From Acidobacteriota bacterium (GTDB taxonomy: Bacteria > Acidobacteriota > Terriglobia > Bryobacterales > UBA6623): a DNA stretch of 64,000 bases. The position numbers and the translations under genes were made by a program. A model generated the notes under the pieces. That model worked only from the letters and a program-made list of their open reading frames with translations, had not been told where the DNA came from and did no database searches. Positions 5,056-63,595 of the stretch are shown here, in pieces. Position 1 is the first letter of the stretch, and every line of letters begins with the position of its first letter. The stretch lies in NCBI GenBank assembly GCA_016125275.1, contig WGMB01000003.1, forward strand, positions 558,001 to 622,000, written 5' to 3'.

Positions 5056-7233
5056 GTGCGATGGCTCACGGTCCTCGGGGCTTGCGCGTTCGCGTTCTGG
5101 TTGCGTTGCGCCTTTGGCTATTCGGTCGTTTTCCAGCCCGATGGGTTCGTGAACTTTCAGGACACCGACGCCTGGTATCACTACCGGGTCATCGAGAACC
5201 TGCTGGCCCACTTTCCCTGGCGCATCACCTTTGACCCCTACGCCGTCTACCCGGACGGCCAAAACCCTCGCTTCGCAGGCCTTTACGACTTGGGCGTCGG
5301 CTTCGTTGCGTGGGCCCTGGGCGCGGGGACGCCGAGCGCCGAGCTGGCCAAGGCGACGGCGGCTTGGTCGCCGGCGGCGATGGCGGCGCTGGTCCCAGCA
5401 GCGGTCTACTTGCTGGCGCGCACGCTCTTCGCTCCTGGGGCGGCGATTGCGGCGGCTTGGCTCATCGCCGTTCTCCCAGGGAATTGGCTGAAAGTCTCTC
5501 GACTCGGGTTCGCCGACCATCACGTGGCCGAAGTCCTGTTCTCCACGCTGGCTCTGTGGGCTCTGCTGCGGTCGTTCGAGCGCTCGCGGCTCGCCGCGGC
5601 CGGCGCCGGCCTGGCGTTGGGAGCCTATCTCGCCGCCTGGGCCCCCGGCGCCCTGCTGGCCGCCGTGATCGTCGCCTGGACCGCTCTGTACGCGCTGATC
5701 CGCCGCTTCGGCGACGAGGACGCCCGTCCGGTGGTCGAGCGCGTCCTCATCACCCTCGCCGTGGCTTGGCTGTTCTTCCTGCCCTTCGGCTGGCACCGCT
5801 GGTCTATCTACACGCATGTCGCGCTGGGAGGGGGAATCCTCGGGCTCGCAGGCCTGCAGGCCCTCGGCGACTTCCTGCGGCGCAAGGGCGCGCCGCCGTG
5901 GGCTTTGCCGGCCGTCCTCTCGGCGGGACTGGCCGCCGCCATCGCCGCCGCCGTCCTCCTCGATCCGCCATGGTTCGCCGCGTTCCGAAGCGAATTGGCG
6001 CGCTTTCAGCCGACCGACCGCCAACAAACCCTCGGCGAGCTCCGGCCCATCCTCTACTTCTACGGCCCCTTTCAGCTCCGAGCCGTATGGGAACAATTCG
6101 GCTTCAGTTGGCTGTTGGCCCTGCCGGCCTTCGTCGCGCTGCTGTGGCGCAGGCGCGGCGGGCTGAGCCCCGCGCGGTCGCTGTTTCTGTTCTGGACGGC
6201 TTTCTTTCTGGCGATGACCGTGAGCCAGATCCGCACCGCCTACTATCTGGCAGTCTGTTTCGCGGTCCTGGCGGGCGCGGCGGCCTGGAAGCTCTACCAG
6301 GCCTCACCGAGGCGCGTGCGGCCGCTGACCGCCTCGGCGCTGCTGCTCTTCCTCTACGGCGCCAATCTAGGCCCCGCGCTCGAGATCGTACGCTCGGACA
6401 GCGGCGTCTCCCCCGAGCTGCGCCAAGCGCTGGAGTGGCTGTCCCGGTCCACACCGGAACCCTTCGGCGACCCCAAAAAGCGCCTGGCCTTGTATGGCGA
6501 CGGCATGCGCGCCGGCGAGTTCGACTACCCGGATTCGGTCTACACGGTGCTGTGCTGGTGGGACCTCGGCCATCAGGTCAACGCGATCGCCGGCCGCATC
6601 CCCACAGCCAACGGCTTCCAGACCGGCGGGTTCCATTCGGCTCGGTTCTACCTGGCGACCTCCGAAGCCGAAGCCCTACCGATCGCCCGGGAGCTGCGCG
6701 CCCGCTACCTGCTGCTGGAGCCCGGCATCCCGGTGTGGTCCTTCGGTTCACTCACCCCGACCGGCTCCAAGTTCCTCGCTTTCCCCCTCTGGAGCCACGG
6801 CGAGAAGCGCCTGGAGCAGTACCTGGAGGTCTACGTCCGAAGAACCGACGACGGACGAGACGAGCCCGTGGTCGTCTTCTACCCAGACTACTACCGTTCA
6901 ATGATGGCCCGCCTGTATCTGTTCGACGGCCGCGCCGTGGAGCCCGTCGATTCGGTGTGGGCGCTGGCCTGGAAACCTGAAACCGGCCCCGACGGCGAGA
7001 TGAGGCGCCGGATCACCTCGCAGCGCCGATTCCGCACCTACGAGGAGGCTCACCGCTACATCGAAGTCCGCCCGGATCAGCCGCTCGTGCTTGCCGGCCT
7101 CGATCCGGCCCGCAGTTGCGTCCCGCTCGGGGCCCTGGAGAGCTTCCGAGAGGCCTACAGCACGAACCCCGGCCCCCTGGGCGGCGAGACCGGCCGGGTG
7201 ACCGCCGTGAAGGTCTTCGAGCGCCTTCGCTGA
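5056..7233 (+). CDS. STT3/AglB/PglB-like oligosaccharyltransferase, membrane protein
   Basis: This 725-residue polytopic protein carries the catalytic signature of oligosaccharyltransferases, which move a lipid-linked glycan onto asparagine in exported proteins. Seen in order: after the first membrane segment, DTDAWYHYR (Asp36/Asp38, the first acidic loop motif); GFADHHVAEV (Asp154, second acidic motif); TLGEL (Glu328, the TIXE-type glutamate of external loop 5); RTAYY (about 393-397); and WWDLG (501-505), matching the WWDYG motif of the soluble C-terminal domain. About 12 hydrophobic segments precede that domain. The start is GTG 5056, the only reasonable start after the in-frame stop at 4990; AGGAG directly abuts it, an unusual spacing. 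The gene is single and not next to glycan assembly genes. O-linked or other GT-C enzymes are less likely because WWDLG is present. Confidence 0.85.
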   Translation: MRWLTVLGACAFAFWLRCAFGYSVVFQPDGFVNFQDTDAWYHYRVIENLLAHFPWRITFDPYAVYPDGQNPRFAGLYDLGVGFVAWALGAGTPSAELAKATAAWSPAAMAALVPAAVYLLARTLFAPGAAIAAAWLIAVLPGNWLKVSRLGFADHHVAEVLFSTLALWALLRSFERSRLAAAGAGLALGAYLAAWAPGALLAAVIVAWTALYALIRRFGDEDARPVVERVLITLAVAWLFFLPFGWHRWSIYTHVALGGGILGLAGLQALGDFLRRKGAPPWALPAVLSAGLAAAIAAAVLLDPPWFAAFRSELARFQPTDRQQTLGELRPILYFYGPFQLRAVWEQFGFSWLLALPAFVALLWRRRGGLSPARSLFLFWTAFFLAMTVSQIRTAYYLAVCFAVLAGAAAWKLYQASPRRVRPLTASALLLFLYGANLGPALEIVRSDSGVSPELRQALEWLSRSTPEPFGDPKKRLALYGDGMRAGEFDYPDSVYTVLCWWDLGHQVNAIAGRIPTANGFQTGGFHSARFYLATSEAEALPIARELRARYLLLEPGIPVWSFGSLTPTGSKFLAFPLWSHGEKRLEQYLEVYVRRTDDGRDEPVVVFYPDYYRSMMARLYLFDGRAVEPVDSVWALAWKPETGPDGEMRRRITSQRRFRTYEEAHRYIEVRPDQPLVLAGLDPARSCVPLGALESFREAYSTNPGPLGGETGRVTAVKVFERLR

Positions 7234-7314: not shown

Positions 7315-8010
7315 ATGCGCAAATGGACCTGCTGGGGGAGCGCGGCTGCGCTCCTGACCCTTTTGGCGGCCTGTGGCGGCGCCCCGGAGGCGGCTCACGA
7401 GGAGGCCCCGCCGCCCGCCGAGCCGGCCGCCACCGCCGAGTACCACCCCATCTTCAACGGGACTTCGCTGGACGGCTGGGAGCTGATCGGCAAGACCGGC
7501 GACGGCTACGTGGTAGAGGACGGCATGATCGTCTGCCCGCCCGAAGGCGGCGGCAACCTGTTCTATGACAAGGAGCTCACCGACTTCCAGGTGAAGTTCG
7601 AGTTCAAGCTCGACGAGGGCTCCAACAACGGGCTCTGCATTCGCTGCCCCAAGCAGGACAAGAGCTTGGCCTACGAGGGCATCGAGCTGCAGATCATCAA
7701 CAACAACGGCGAGCGCTACAAGGACATCGAGACCTGGCAGAAGCACGGTTCGCTCTACAACGTGTTCCCCGCCGAGACCGGCGCTCTCAAGCCCGTGGGC
7801 GAATGGAACGAGGAAGAGGTCACCGTGCAGGGCACCAAGGTCAAGGTGGTCGTCAACGGCAAGACCATCCTCGATGTCGACACCACTTCGGTCACCGACC
7901 CGGCCGTGCTCGAGAAGCACCCCGGCCTGAAGCGGACCTCCGGCTACATCGGCTTCTTGGGCCACCACGAGCCGATCGCCTTCCGCAACATCGAGCTCAA
8001 GGAGCTCTGA
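7315..8010 (+). CDS. DUF1080 (3-keto-disaccharide hydrolase fold) lipoprotein
   Basis: The 231-residue product has a lipoprotein signal with lipobox LAAC near residue 20, an Ala/Pro/Glu linker, then one DUF1080 domain. The domain opens with FNGTSLDGWE and contains DFQVKFEFKL, the SNNGLCIRC strand, IELQIINNNG and the closing GYIGFLGHHEPIAFRNI. DUF1080 is a concanavalin-like beta-sandwich common in Acidobacteriota, Planctomycetes and Bacteroidetes. Some members hydrolyse 3-keto-glycosides made by Gfo/Idh/MocA enzymes, two of which are encoded in this window. Anchoring in the envelope and glycan-related action are inferred. The unit is monocistronic, with its own promoter candidate and a strong hairpin after it. 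Confidence 0.92.
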   Translation: MRKWTCWGSAAALLTLLAACGGAPEAAHEEAPPPAEPAATAEYHPIFNGTSLDGWELIGKTGDGYVVEDGMIVCPPEGGGNLFYDKELTDFQVKFEFKLDEGSNNGLCIRCPKQDKSLAYEGIELQIINNNGERYKDIETWQKHGSLYNVFPAETGALKPVGEWNEEEVTVQGTKVKVVVNGKTILDVDTTSVTDPAVLEKHPGLKRTSGYIGFLGHHEPIAFRNIELKEL

Positions 8011-60950: not shown

Positions 60951-62108
60951 GTGGACGCATCCCGCACTCGAGCCCCCCGTCGTTCCATCCATATCTTCGG
61001 CTCCCTGGCGACAGGAGGCGCGGAGACTTGGTTCCTGCGCCTGCTCGCCTCGCGGCCGCCGGGCTGCCGCTGGAGCGCTGACGTCTGCCTGCTCGATCCG
61101 CAGCCGGGCCCCTATGTGGAGCGGGCGCGCGAGCTGGGCGCGGAAATCCTGGAATGCCCCTTCCGGCCGGCGGCGACCTTCCCCTGGCGGCTGCACAAGC
61201 TGTTGCGCGGGCAACGCTATGACGTCGTGCACAGCCATGTGCTGCTGTTCGGCGGCGTGATCGCCGCGGCGGCGGCCGCGGCCGGCGTCCCGGTGCGCGT
61301 GGCGCACGCTCACAACTCCCGCGACGGCCGCGGCGGCTCCGCCGGCCGCTTCCTGTACCGCGCCGGCATGCGCGCCGCGATGCGGCGCTTCGCCAACCTG
61401 GGCCTGGCCTGCTCGCGGGGAGCCGCCAAAATGCTCGGCCTGCGCGACGTCAAGCTGCTGCCCTATGGCCTCGACCTGAATCCCTGCGAAACCCTCCGGG
61501 GCTCGCTGAAGGCGGAGCTCGGCTGGACCGAGGACGCCTTCGTGCTCGGAGCCGTCGGACGCCTCCATCCGCAGAAGAATCACGCGTTTCTGCTCGAAGC
61601 CTTCGCCGAAGCCCGCCAATGGGAGCCTCGGCTGCGGCTGGCGATCGTCGGCGAGGGAGAGCTGCGGCCTGCCCTCGAAGAAAGGATCGCCGACCTGGGT
61701 CTCGACGGGCTGGTACGGTTGACCGGCCGGCGCGGCGACGTCGCTGAGCTGCTGCACGGGCTCTTTGACGCCTTCGTCATGCCTTCGCTCTACGAGGGCC
61801 TGCCGGTGGCCTTGCTCGAGGGGCAGGCCGCCGGGCTGCCCTGCTTGGTCTCCGACCGCATCAGCCGGGAAGCCTTCGCCATCCCTGAGTTGATCGGTTC
61901 CGCCGCCCTCGACGCCGGCTGGGCGCGGCGGCTGGCGGACTTGCCCGGTCGCCGGCGCCTGGCCTCCAAGGCGGCCCGCGAGCTGCTGCGCGACGCCGGG
62001 TTCGCCATCGATGACGCTTGGCGGCGGCTGACCGCTTACTACGACGGCGTTTTGGAGCAGGCCGAATCCGCCGATGAGGACGCGGCCGATTGGGCGGAGG
62101 CGGCGTGA
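60951..62108 (+). CDS. GT4-family glycosyltransferase
   Basis: The 385-residue protein has the GT-B layout: SIHIFGSLATGGAETWFLRLL at the start, DVVHSHVLLFGG, GAVGRLHPQKNHAFLLEAF and the nucleotide-sugar-binding MPSLYEGLPVALLEGQAAGLPCLVSD. It transfers a sugar from a nucleotide donor to a lipid-linked or growing polysaccharide in the cytoplasm. The stop overlaps the start of the next gene (GTGA), a membrane polymerase, in a polysaccharide assembly unit. The start is GTG 60951 with no obvious ribosome site. Confidence 0.95.
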   Translation: MDASRTRAPRRSIHIFGSLATGGAETWFLRLLASRPPGCRWSADVCLLDPQPGPYVERARELGAEILECPFRPAATFPWRLHKLLRGQRYDVVHSHVLLFGGVIAAAAAAAGVPVRVAHAHNSRDGRGGSAGRFLYRAGMRAAMRRFANLGLACSRGAAKMLGLRDVKLLPYGLDLNPCETLRGSLKAELGWTEDAFVLGAVGRLHPQKNHAFLLEAFAEARQWEPRLRLAIVGEGELRPALEERIADLGLDGLVRLTGRRGDVAELLHGLFDAFVMPSLYEGLPVALLEGQAAGLPCLVSDRISREAFAIPELIGSAALDAGWARRLADLPGRRRLASKAARELLRDAGFAIDDAWRRLTAYYDGVLEQAESADEDAADWAEAA

Positions 62109-63595
62109 GACTTCCCCAGCCTTCCGTGAGACGGGTCGCTCAGGCCGCCGGCAGGACGGGTCCCGCCGCGGCGGGGCTGCTGCTGCAGGTCGCCCTGCTG
62201 GCCTTGGCTTGGTCCTCCGGCGACGATCGCACCGCCGCCTTGGCCGGCGTGGCCTCGTTCGCCTGCGCCATCGCCGTGGGTCTGGCGGGGCTGCGGATGC
62301 CGCTGCTGTCGCCCTCGATGCTCTATCTCTACGCGCTGGGGCTGTTCCACTTCGGCATGGCCGGGCCGTGGGCGATGGGAGCGCAGGCCTCTCGCCTGCC
62401 GCTGTGGTTCGTCACCTGGGACCTGGCGCCGGCGCTGACGCTGGCAATCCTGGCGATCGCCTGCTACCAGCTCGGCTTCACCCTGGCGGCGCTGCGGCGC
62501 GCCCCGTCCGCGCCGCAGCAAGCCGCCGCGCCGCGCCACAACACGGTCATGTACCTGTGCGGCGCCGCTACCACCCTGGTCGGGCTGGCGGCGCTCTTGC
62601 TCGGTGCTTGGCAAATCGGCTTCTCCCGCCTGCTCAGCGCCTCGTACTTCGAGTCCTACCAGCTCACCAATACCTATGACCCGCGCCTGCTGGTCTCGAG
62701 CCTGCAGATCGTGCCGATGGGCCTGTACTTGACCGCCGCCTCCGCGCCGCTGCGCCGCTTGCGGCTGGTGCTGGCGGCCGGGCTGCTGTGGACGGGCTTC
62801 ATCTTTCTGGCCGGCTACCGCGGCTTCGCTCTGGCGCCGCTGGCCGTGCTGCTGGCTCTCACCGAGCGACGCGGCGCCGGCGTGCCCCGCCGCTGGCTGG
62901 CCGTCGGCGCGGCGGTGTTGCTGCTGGCGGTGCCGGCGGCGCGCGTGGCGCGAGAGAAGTCCTTGGGCGAGCGCACCCTGCTGGACCTGACCACGACCTC
63001 GAGCCCGTTGGCGGCCGTCGGTGAGATGGGCGGCAGCATTCGGCCGCTGGTTCATACCCTGGTGCTGCTCGAAACCGAGGACCTGCGCTGGGGCTACACC
63101 TACTGGCAAGCCGCTCAGATGCTCGTTCCCAACCTCGCCCTGGAGTGGCAGGGCGGCGGCTACATGCCGATCGAAGACCTGCCGCCGAGCCGCTGGGTCA
63201 CCCGCATCGTCGAACCCTGGATCTACCAGCGCAACGGCGGATTGGGCTTCTCGGCGGTCGCCGAGCCCTACATGAACTTCGGGACCCCCGGCGTCATCGT
63301 CTACTTCGTGGCGCTCGGCTTCTTCCTGGTCCGCTTCGGCGTCGCGGCCGGCGAAAGCCCCGCCGAGTTGGCGATCTGGGCGATGCTGCTCGGCCCTCTG
63401 ATCTGGACCGCGCGCAATTCCTTCACGGTCTTCCTGCGTCCCGCCGTCTGGGGCGTGGGCTTGGTCTTGCTGACCCGTTGGCTCTCCCGCTTGGCCGCCT
63501 CGAGGCGTAGCGGGACGGCCGGGCGGCAAGCGCGTTTCGATACCGCTTGGAGCGGACCCAACCGTCCGCTTGGCGCCGAGGAGGGCGCATTATGA
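62105..63595 (+). CDS. O-antigen/oligosaccharide repeat-unit polymerase-like membrane protein (Wzy-like)
   Basis: The 496-residue protein has about 12 membrane helices with a large periplasmic loop near residue 315-390. That loop contains RWGYTYWQAAQMLVPNLALEW and GGLGFSAVAEPYMNFG, which resemble the oligosaccharide polymerase (O-antigen polysaccharide polymerase Wzy) family. It would join repeat units on the outside of the inner membrane. GTG 62105 overlaps the glycosyltransferase stop and its own stop overlaps the aminotransferase start (ATGA), so it is translationally coupled on both sides. Confidence 0.82.
   Translation: MRLPQPSVRRVAQAAGRTGPAAAGLLLQVALLALAWSSGDDRTAALAGVASFACAIAVGLAGLRMPLLSPSMLYLYALGLFHFGMAGPWAMGAQASRLPLWFVTWDLAPALTLAILAIACYQLGFTLAALRRAPSAPQQAAAPRHNTVMYLCGAATTLVGLAALLLGAWQIGFSRLLSASYFESYQLTNTYDPRLLVSSLQIVPMGLYLTAASAPLRRLRLVLAAGLLWTGFIFLAGYRGFALAPLAVLLALTERRGAGVPRRWLAVGAAVLLLAVPAARVAREKSLGERTLLDLTTTSSPLAAVGEMGGSIRPLVHTLVLLETEDLRWGYTYWQAAQMLVPNLALEWQGGGYMPIEDLPPSRWVTRIVEPWIYQRNGGLGFSAVAEPYMNFGTPGVIVYFVALGFFLVRFGVAAGESPAELAIWAMLLGPLIWTARNSFTVFLRPAVWGVGLVLLTRWLSRLAASRRSGTAGRQARFDTAWSGPNRPLGAEEGAL

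Follow-up and report, generated by a model that had tools for sequence, protein, structure and literature searches.

A gene in the window (the whole 64,000-nucleotide stretch of DNA analysed) encodes a protein that is of the archaeal AglB type by sequence and fold. We consider it probable that this protein belongs to a bacterial N-glycosylation system together with a PglK-like flippase and an ALG1-like enzyme; we infer catalysis, the sequon, the glycan, a shared donor and the ALG1 identity. The product would be a single-subunit oligosaccharyltransferase of the inner membrane. On the outward side of the cytoplasmic membrane, it would transfer an oligosaccharide from a polyprenol carrier to exported proteins, at the asparagine of Asn-X-Ser/Thr sequons. 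A WecA-like phosphoglycosyltransferase, an ALG1-like enzyme and one or two GT4 enzymes would most likely make its donor in the cytoplasm, and a PglK-like ABC transporter would then flip the lipid-linked glycan. This donor would most likely serve all three paralogs of this genome. The initial annotation had proposed that the lineage can glycosylate exported proteins, and this is borne out as probable because the predicted oligosaccharyltransferase belongs to the STT3 superfamily and has all its catalytic positions filled.

The reading frame that had been annotated here is real, with 725 unbroken codons from a GTG start, internal stops absent, and the STT3 catalytic set (Table 1). Its start codon is uncertain, because an AGGA directly abuts the GTG and is too near for a usual ribosome site. 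A simple hydropathy scan of the product gave seven merged segments, which are not used for a helix count. In Pfam, the product matched STT3 (E 2.3e-22, residues 22-274) and AglB_core (E 9.2e-13, residues 456-555). In NCBIfam, TIGR04154, the archaeal STT3 of the archaeosortase system, matched residues 5-723 with 432.4 bits (E 3.9e-129), a score that does not reach the curated cut-off of 450. The two paralogs scored 387.1 and 362.2, and the protein of genome G238 scored 521.7, over the cut-off. The best match in the PDB was Archaeoglobus fulgidus AglB (E 7e-43), followed by human STT3A (E 5.5e-6), and a profile of 11 relatives matched the same two at E 2.5e-130 and 2.4e-27. PglB chains of the PDB gave no match at E <= 1, either to the single protein with phmmer or to the profile of 11 relatives.

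Fold comparison points the same way. An AlphaFold model built from 12 rows had a mean pLDDT of 68.6 and a pTM of 0.62. Foldseek placed A. fulgidus AglB first (E 8.9e-24), followed by eukaryotic STT3, with PglB at rank 17 and DPY19 at rank 20. Alignment with VIA-align gave a Z of 41.8 for AglB (rmsd 5.0, 543 aligned), 36.8 for yeast STT3, 28.4 for PglB and 25.3 for DPY19. A GT-C fold with a C-terminal globular domain was found over residues 4-725, and AglB was the best match in both programs; the model thus supports the STT3/AglB fold family for the product. A structural comparison with PglB and AglB had been suggested initially. Its outcome is clear for the fold, which is nearest to AglB, but pLDDT falls below 50 at residues 316-339 and 438-525 and in a few shorter stretches, so that Glu328 and the WWDLG motif lie in low-confidence regions. 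The description of the enzyme as bacterial-type is unsupported, given the TIGR04154 match, the AglB match at E 7e-43, and the Z of 41.8 against 28.4 for PglB.

Table 1. Features of the window gene and its paralogs (positions without a contig or locus name are those of the window).
Feature	Position	Strand	Basis or relation
AglB/STT3-type oligosaccharyltransferase gene	5056..7233	+	frame, family searches, fold comparison
Asp38 codon, first external loop	5167..5169	+	aligned with AglB Asp47, metal ligand
Asp154-His155-His156, second external loop	5515..5523	+	aligned with AglB Asp161-His162-His163
TLGE (325-328), the TIXE motif	6028..6039	+	Glu328 aligned with AglB Glu360
WWDLG (501-505), the WWDYG sequon-binding motif with Leu for Tyr	6556..6570	+	alignments
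Degenerate DK-type motif: Glu555 for Asp, insert, Lys572 kept	6718..6771	+	alignment columns
This copy	window 5056..7233, contig C14 (1.87 Mb, 7.55-Mb assembly)	+	AglB search
Paralog 2	C15:5262-7367 (gene L031:5112-7427)		39% identical to the 5056-7233 copy
Paralog 3	C6:12546-14642		37% identical to the 5056-7233 copy

The motifs DTD (36-38), DHH (154-156), TLGE with Glu328 (325-328) and WWDLG (501-505) lie where the initial annotation had placed them. Its choice of Asp36 as the first-loop residue was wrong: the alignment with A. fulgidus AglB pairs Asp47 with Asp38, and nearly all aligned relatives have Gly, Glu, Ser or some other residue at position 36, Asp being found also in L041. In A. 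fulgidus AglB, the metal ligands are Asp47, Asp161 and His163, and Glu360 of the TIXE motif participates via water (passages of PMC8342417); the roles of the catalytic positions are described in parts of PMC8342417 and PMC7226087. Asp38, Asp154 and His156 align with these ligands, and the TIXE/SVSE glutamate of the fifth external loop is present as Glu328. Two alignments, of 12 and 11 sequences, show no variation at D38, D154, H155, H156, E328, W501, W502, D503 and G505; the WWD of WWDYG is thus present, with its glycine also kept. The Tyr position holds Leu here, and Gln and Ile in the two paralogs. Next to the Ser/Thr pocket, where a DK or MI motif is expected, Glu555 and Lys572 align with D and K, with an insert between them. 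The motif set is not a product of chance, because relatives with the same motifs were found in independent genomes. By homology with A. fulgidus AglB and PglB, Asp38, Asp154 and His156 would hold a divalent metal, Glu328 and Asp38 would act on the acceptor asparagine, and WWD would read the Ser or Thr at +2.

As DPY19, a C-mannosyltransferase (Z 25.3), ArnT and PMT share the GT-C/STT3 fold, the product could in principle be a glycosyltransferase of this fold with an acceptor other than asparagine, serving C-mannosylation, an O-linked acceptor or a cell-wall glycan. Function may also have drifted among AglB-like proteins, since six genomes of the phylum have such proteins without WWD. We nevertheless judge a non-asparagine acceptor to be unlikely: WWD, DHH and Glu328 are complete and invariant in the protein's own group, AglB outranks DPY19 by fold and is also what the sequence matches, and the flippase is kept in seven genomes, with genes for a lipid-linked glycan also kept in five. 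Transfer to asparagine is the reaction that we favor, and we turn to the genes that may supply its lipid-linked donor.

The gene of an ABC transporter (L031:7430-9202) begins two bases after that of paralog 2. Its product matched Campylobacter jejuni WlaB/PglK (6hrc) over residues 27-564 at E 9.1e-60, and the PDB rows above WlaB were mostly eukaryotic ABC exporters matched in parts. We call it only PglK-like because it scored 222.6 bits with the NCBIfam PglK model NF050066, whose cut-off is 1000; with MsbA it scored 257.1 (cut-off 602). At E <= 1e-100, a search of 297 phylum genomes gave this flippase in exactly the seven whose AglB carries WWD (Fisher p 2.7e-14). A looser limit of E <= 1e-65 added G028 and G183 of family f25 (1.1e-82 and 2.3e-84), two genomes with no AglB match, to give 9 of 297 (p 9.6e-13), and none of the six genomes with AglB lacking WWD was among these nine. 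Counted by family, p was 0.6 to 1.1e-6, assuming 80 or 70 families. These p values are guides, as the genomes are related (four come from one genus) and the best four candidates per genome were scored. The match in G107 spans one TAG, and the called frame at this place is 590 codons long. Another flippase-like gene of the own genome (C12:467315-469090, 38%) has no AglB gene among the genes listed in the surrounding 20 kb. The distance between AglB and flippase genes is about 19 kb in G213 and about 67 kb in G167, and the two lie on separate contigs in G285, G107 and G246.

These positions bear on the earlier view that the window gene is isolated from glycan-assembly genes. It holds in that no such gene adjoins it and likely donor genes lie elsewhere, but the paralog on C15 is two bases from a flippase. 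The own genome has three AglB-type genes, which group together at 89/91 in a 27-row tree, under the support limit set. One may ask whether flippase-adjacent paralog 2 is the working enzyme and the window gene a redundant or decaying copy, which would either be inactive or serve as a minor isoform for particular acceptors. The divergence of the other copies (39 and 37% identical to it), a flippase gene beside paralog 2 only in the stretches read, and the Tyr to Leu change and degenerate DK motif of this copy would agree with that. However, its 725-codon frame is intact and all catalytic positions are kept despite an end branch of 0.96 changes per column, and the other two copies also deviate at the Tyr and DK positions, making this reading improbable. 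A functional oligosaccharyltransferase remains the better reading of this copy.

Likely donor genes were sought around the flippase. In G285, G167, G213 and G107, which all belong to one genus, a single cluster around the flippase contains a WecA-like gene, an ALG1-like gene and one or two GT4-type genes; with G238 included, flippase, WecA-like and ALG1-like genes are clustered in five genomes. The WecA and ABC parts of G238 share a single 984-codon frame, L039:606-3560 (+), followed by the ALG1-like gene and, about 4 kb beyond it, by AglB, the frame and AglB being about 5 kb apart. In G246, a WecA-like gene adjoins the flippase gene and the ALG1-like gene is divided between two contig ends. 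The ALG1-like gene of the own genome (C14:184302-185513) lies about 378 kb from the window gene on the same contig. Four Bac_transf and two Glycos_transf_4 matches were found in this genome, and one of the Glycos_transf_4 proteins, encoded at C15:154254, shares 42.6% identity over 235 residues with the clustered WecA-like enzyme. The presence of these two families is little informative because they are common in control genomes (Bac_transf in 9 of 14, Glycos_transf_4 in 12 of 14).

An ALG1-like gene was detected at E <= 1e-12 in 13 of 297 genomes, namely all seven with WWD-type AglB and six of family f47 (loci L135, L136, L137, L138, L125 and L129). It thus co-occurs with WWD-type AglB in 7 of 7 genomes and is found in 6 of the 290 others; the best six candidates per genome were scored, so that absences are soft. 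The six f47 genomes had neither a WWD-type AglB nor a PglK-like flippase in the phylum searches. A strict link among ALG1, AglB and flippase is therefore disfavored.

Ten rows from the 13 positive genomes were aligned, G088, G159 and G246 being left out. Exact strings in these rows were GDLGRSPRMQYHA in 4, NPP..PTL in 9, DWHN in 9, YDRP in 10, TSWT.DEDF in 7 and SSSGLDLPMK in 5, and rows without an exact string had near variants instead. The own copy has GDLGRSPRMTHHA, NPPSLPTL, DWHN, YDRP, TSWTADENI and SSSGIDLPMK. We take these strings to be motifs of eukaryotic ALG1, which attaches the first mannose. On the basis of these putative motifs, the clustered glycosyltransferase looks like ALG1. 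The ALG1-like proteins had no PDB match at E <= 0.001, and in Pfam and NCBIfam none was named ALG1, general glycosyltransferase models being at most what they matched. ALG1 constitutes CAZy family GT33 (part of PMC3797821). According to passages of Lombard 2016 (PMC4973528), that study could not establish its closest prokaryotic relatives, and it is possibly a eukaryotic innovation. Some Acidobacteriota may have complete N-glycosylation: an ALG1-family enzyme would lengthen a diphosphate-linked sugar made by WecA, as happens in eukaryotes, and a PglK-like flippase and an AglB-type transferase would follow. The ALG1-family enzymes of these bacteria would then represent the prokaryotic relatives that Lombard 2016 had been unable to identify; we put this forward tentatively, as a possibility that is rather doubtful at present. 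Among the literature matches listed (titles, term counts and abstract starts, with subscription journals mostly outside), there was no report of Acidobacteria with this transferase or with ALG1. PMC8993221 lacked Alg1 as a whole word, and the first 300,000 characters of PMC7203096 lacked Alg1, STT3 and oligosaccharyl.

Another neighbor of AglB is an Asparaginase_2 gene, which is divergent to it in G285, G107 and G314 (3 of 9 genomes of the genus, surveyed in nine stretches, one of only 3 kb). The best PDB match of the G285 protein was N4-(beta-N-acetylglucosaminyl)-L-asparaginase (E 4.9e-53), and isoaspartyl peptidase matched at 1.7e-24. Glycosylasparaginases cut the bond formed by an N-linking transferase. 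Such a glycosylasparaginase-like neighbor agrees with N-glycosylation and proves nothing. Gene calls in the fetched stretches came from a simple script using longest frames and third-position GC, so that some frames are wrong; the genes that bear the argument were checked by family search, PDB search or tblastn.

The distribution of the AglB type in the phylum is patchy: 7 of 297 genomes have it, as does 1 of the 18 that make up the own family. A match at E <= 1e-10 was obtained in 13 of 297 genomes, the own included, the best three candidates per genome being scored and absences again being soft. By motif reading, seven are of the WWD type (G000, which is the own genome, G107, G167, G213, G238, G246 and G285) and six lack WWD (G092, G165, G176, G192, G208 and G278). 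The proteins lacking WWD (L041, L042, L043, L044, L045 and L046) retain the Asp, D(H/Q)H and Glu positions. All nine genomes of the genus to which G285 belongs have an AglB match, that of G318 being interrupted by a contig end. AglB of G315 appears only as two-end fragments in a short frame, L089:9306-10049 (+), with another fragment on a second contig, unlike the other members of this genus, which match AglB over most of its length. A scan of the contigs of named genomes gave 12 loci, 10 archaeal and 2 from Dehalococcoidia, a scan from which records near the own genome may be missing.

Phylogenetic placement was examined with the 27-row tree, in which the two Dehalococcoidia rows stand for other bacterial phyla and PglB and eukaryotes are left out. 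For the L037 row, a longer frame was trimmed by 473 codons to a start codon, and the aligned transferase and ALG1-like rows have their first codon written as Met. The WWD-type rows of the phylum form one group (99/98), joined with the Dehalococcoidia rows at 90/93, and the rows without WWD form a separate group (100/99). The STT3 phylogeny that the initial annotation had called for is thereby answered in part: the WWD group of the phylum is single, but the tree is without PglB or eukaryotic rows. Passages of Lombard 2016 (PMC4973528) place bacterial homologues inside a euryarchaeal clade, with at least two transfers from archaea inferred. Transfer direction is beyond the reach of the present tree, which is too narrow.

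Archaeal affinities (10 of the 12 named loci) and a match in only the own genome among 18 of its family raise the question of whether the window gene sits on a contaminating contig foreign to this bacterium. We regard this as extremely unlikely, since the contig is 1.87 Mb long, it also carries the ALG1-like gene, and the putative lepA adjoining the window gene shares 82% identity with its counterpart in a genome of this family; moreover, contigs of 284 and 230 kb carry the other two copies, and all three copies group with other members of the phylum (99/98). The window gene is best seen as native to this genome. Among plasmid sequences, a TonB-type protein from contig C14 found its best near-full-length matches in Granulicella and Acidisarcina, so that the genome probably belongs to the phylum Acidobacteriota. 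Of nine window genes compared with nine stretches from relatives, which represent 9 of the family's 17 other genomes, only the adjoining gene, which we take by eye to be lepA, matched, and so the insertion site is uninformative about the arrival of the transferase gene.

Several observations concern the surroundings of these genes. A 3-keto-disaccharide hydrolase (PF06439) gene follows the AglB gene at window positions 7315-8010, and the protein after paralog 3 (L033:14698-15447) looks similar to it by eye. The right end of the window (60951-63595) holds genes for a glycosyltransferase and an O-antigen polymerase (Wzy), which may begin a polysaccharide cluster. A link to exosortase was tried because TIGR04154 is named after archaeosortase. 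It was not clear, with exosortase in 8 of 13 AglB-positive genomes and 95 of 284 others (Fisher p 0.069), and in 4 of 7 genomes with the WWD type (p 0.24). The own genome has one exosortase match, and the gene (L133:15053-17368, equal to G000:C14:195053-197368) immediately follows a Bac_transf gene and is separated from the ALG1-like gene by about 11 kb.

Compared with A. fulgidus AglB (3waj, 5gmy and 7e9s) and TIGR04154, the product is alike in fold, domain order and catalytic positions. By contrast, it is bacterial, its C-terminus is shorter (positions 741-831 of TIGR04154 are unmatched), it has WWDLG for WWDYG, a degenerate DK motif and a sub-cut-off score, and its bacterial relatives carry PglK-like flippase and WecA-like initiation genes. 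With Campylobacter PglB and PglK, the same reaction is expected and a PglK-like flippase accompanies the transferase in both systems, whereas sequence gave no match to PglB at E <= 1 and the fold Z is 28.4 against 41.8 for AglB. The eukaryotic dolichol pathway (ALG7, ALG1 and STT3) offers a further parallel, as relatives have a WecA-type initiator, presumably of the family of ALG7, clustered with an ALG1-like enzyme that has putative ALG1 motifs; the flippase here differs in being of the ABC type. PglB homologues are described mostly in epsilonproteobacteria, with fewer in deltaproteobacteria and Aquificae (part of PMC4894442). What is new is the combination of enzymes and its co-occurrence in the sampled phylum. 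If the proposed pathway is true, another phylum would possess a second, archaeal-type version of N-glycosylation, with a pathway of mixed origin. It would also provide a testable candidate for the origin of ALG1, a question that an earlier phylogenetic analysis (PMC4973528) leaves open, and transferases with different sequon or glycan preferences would be useful for glycoprotein production.
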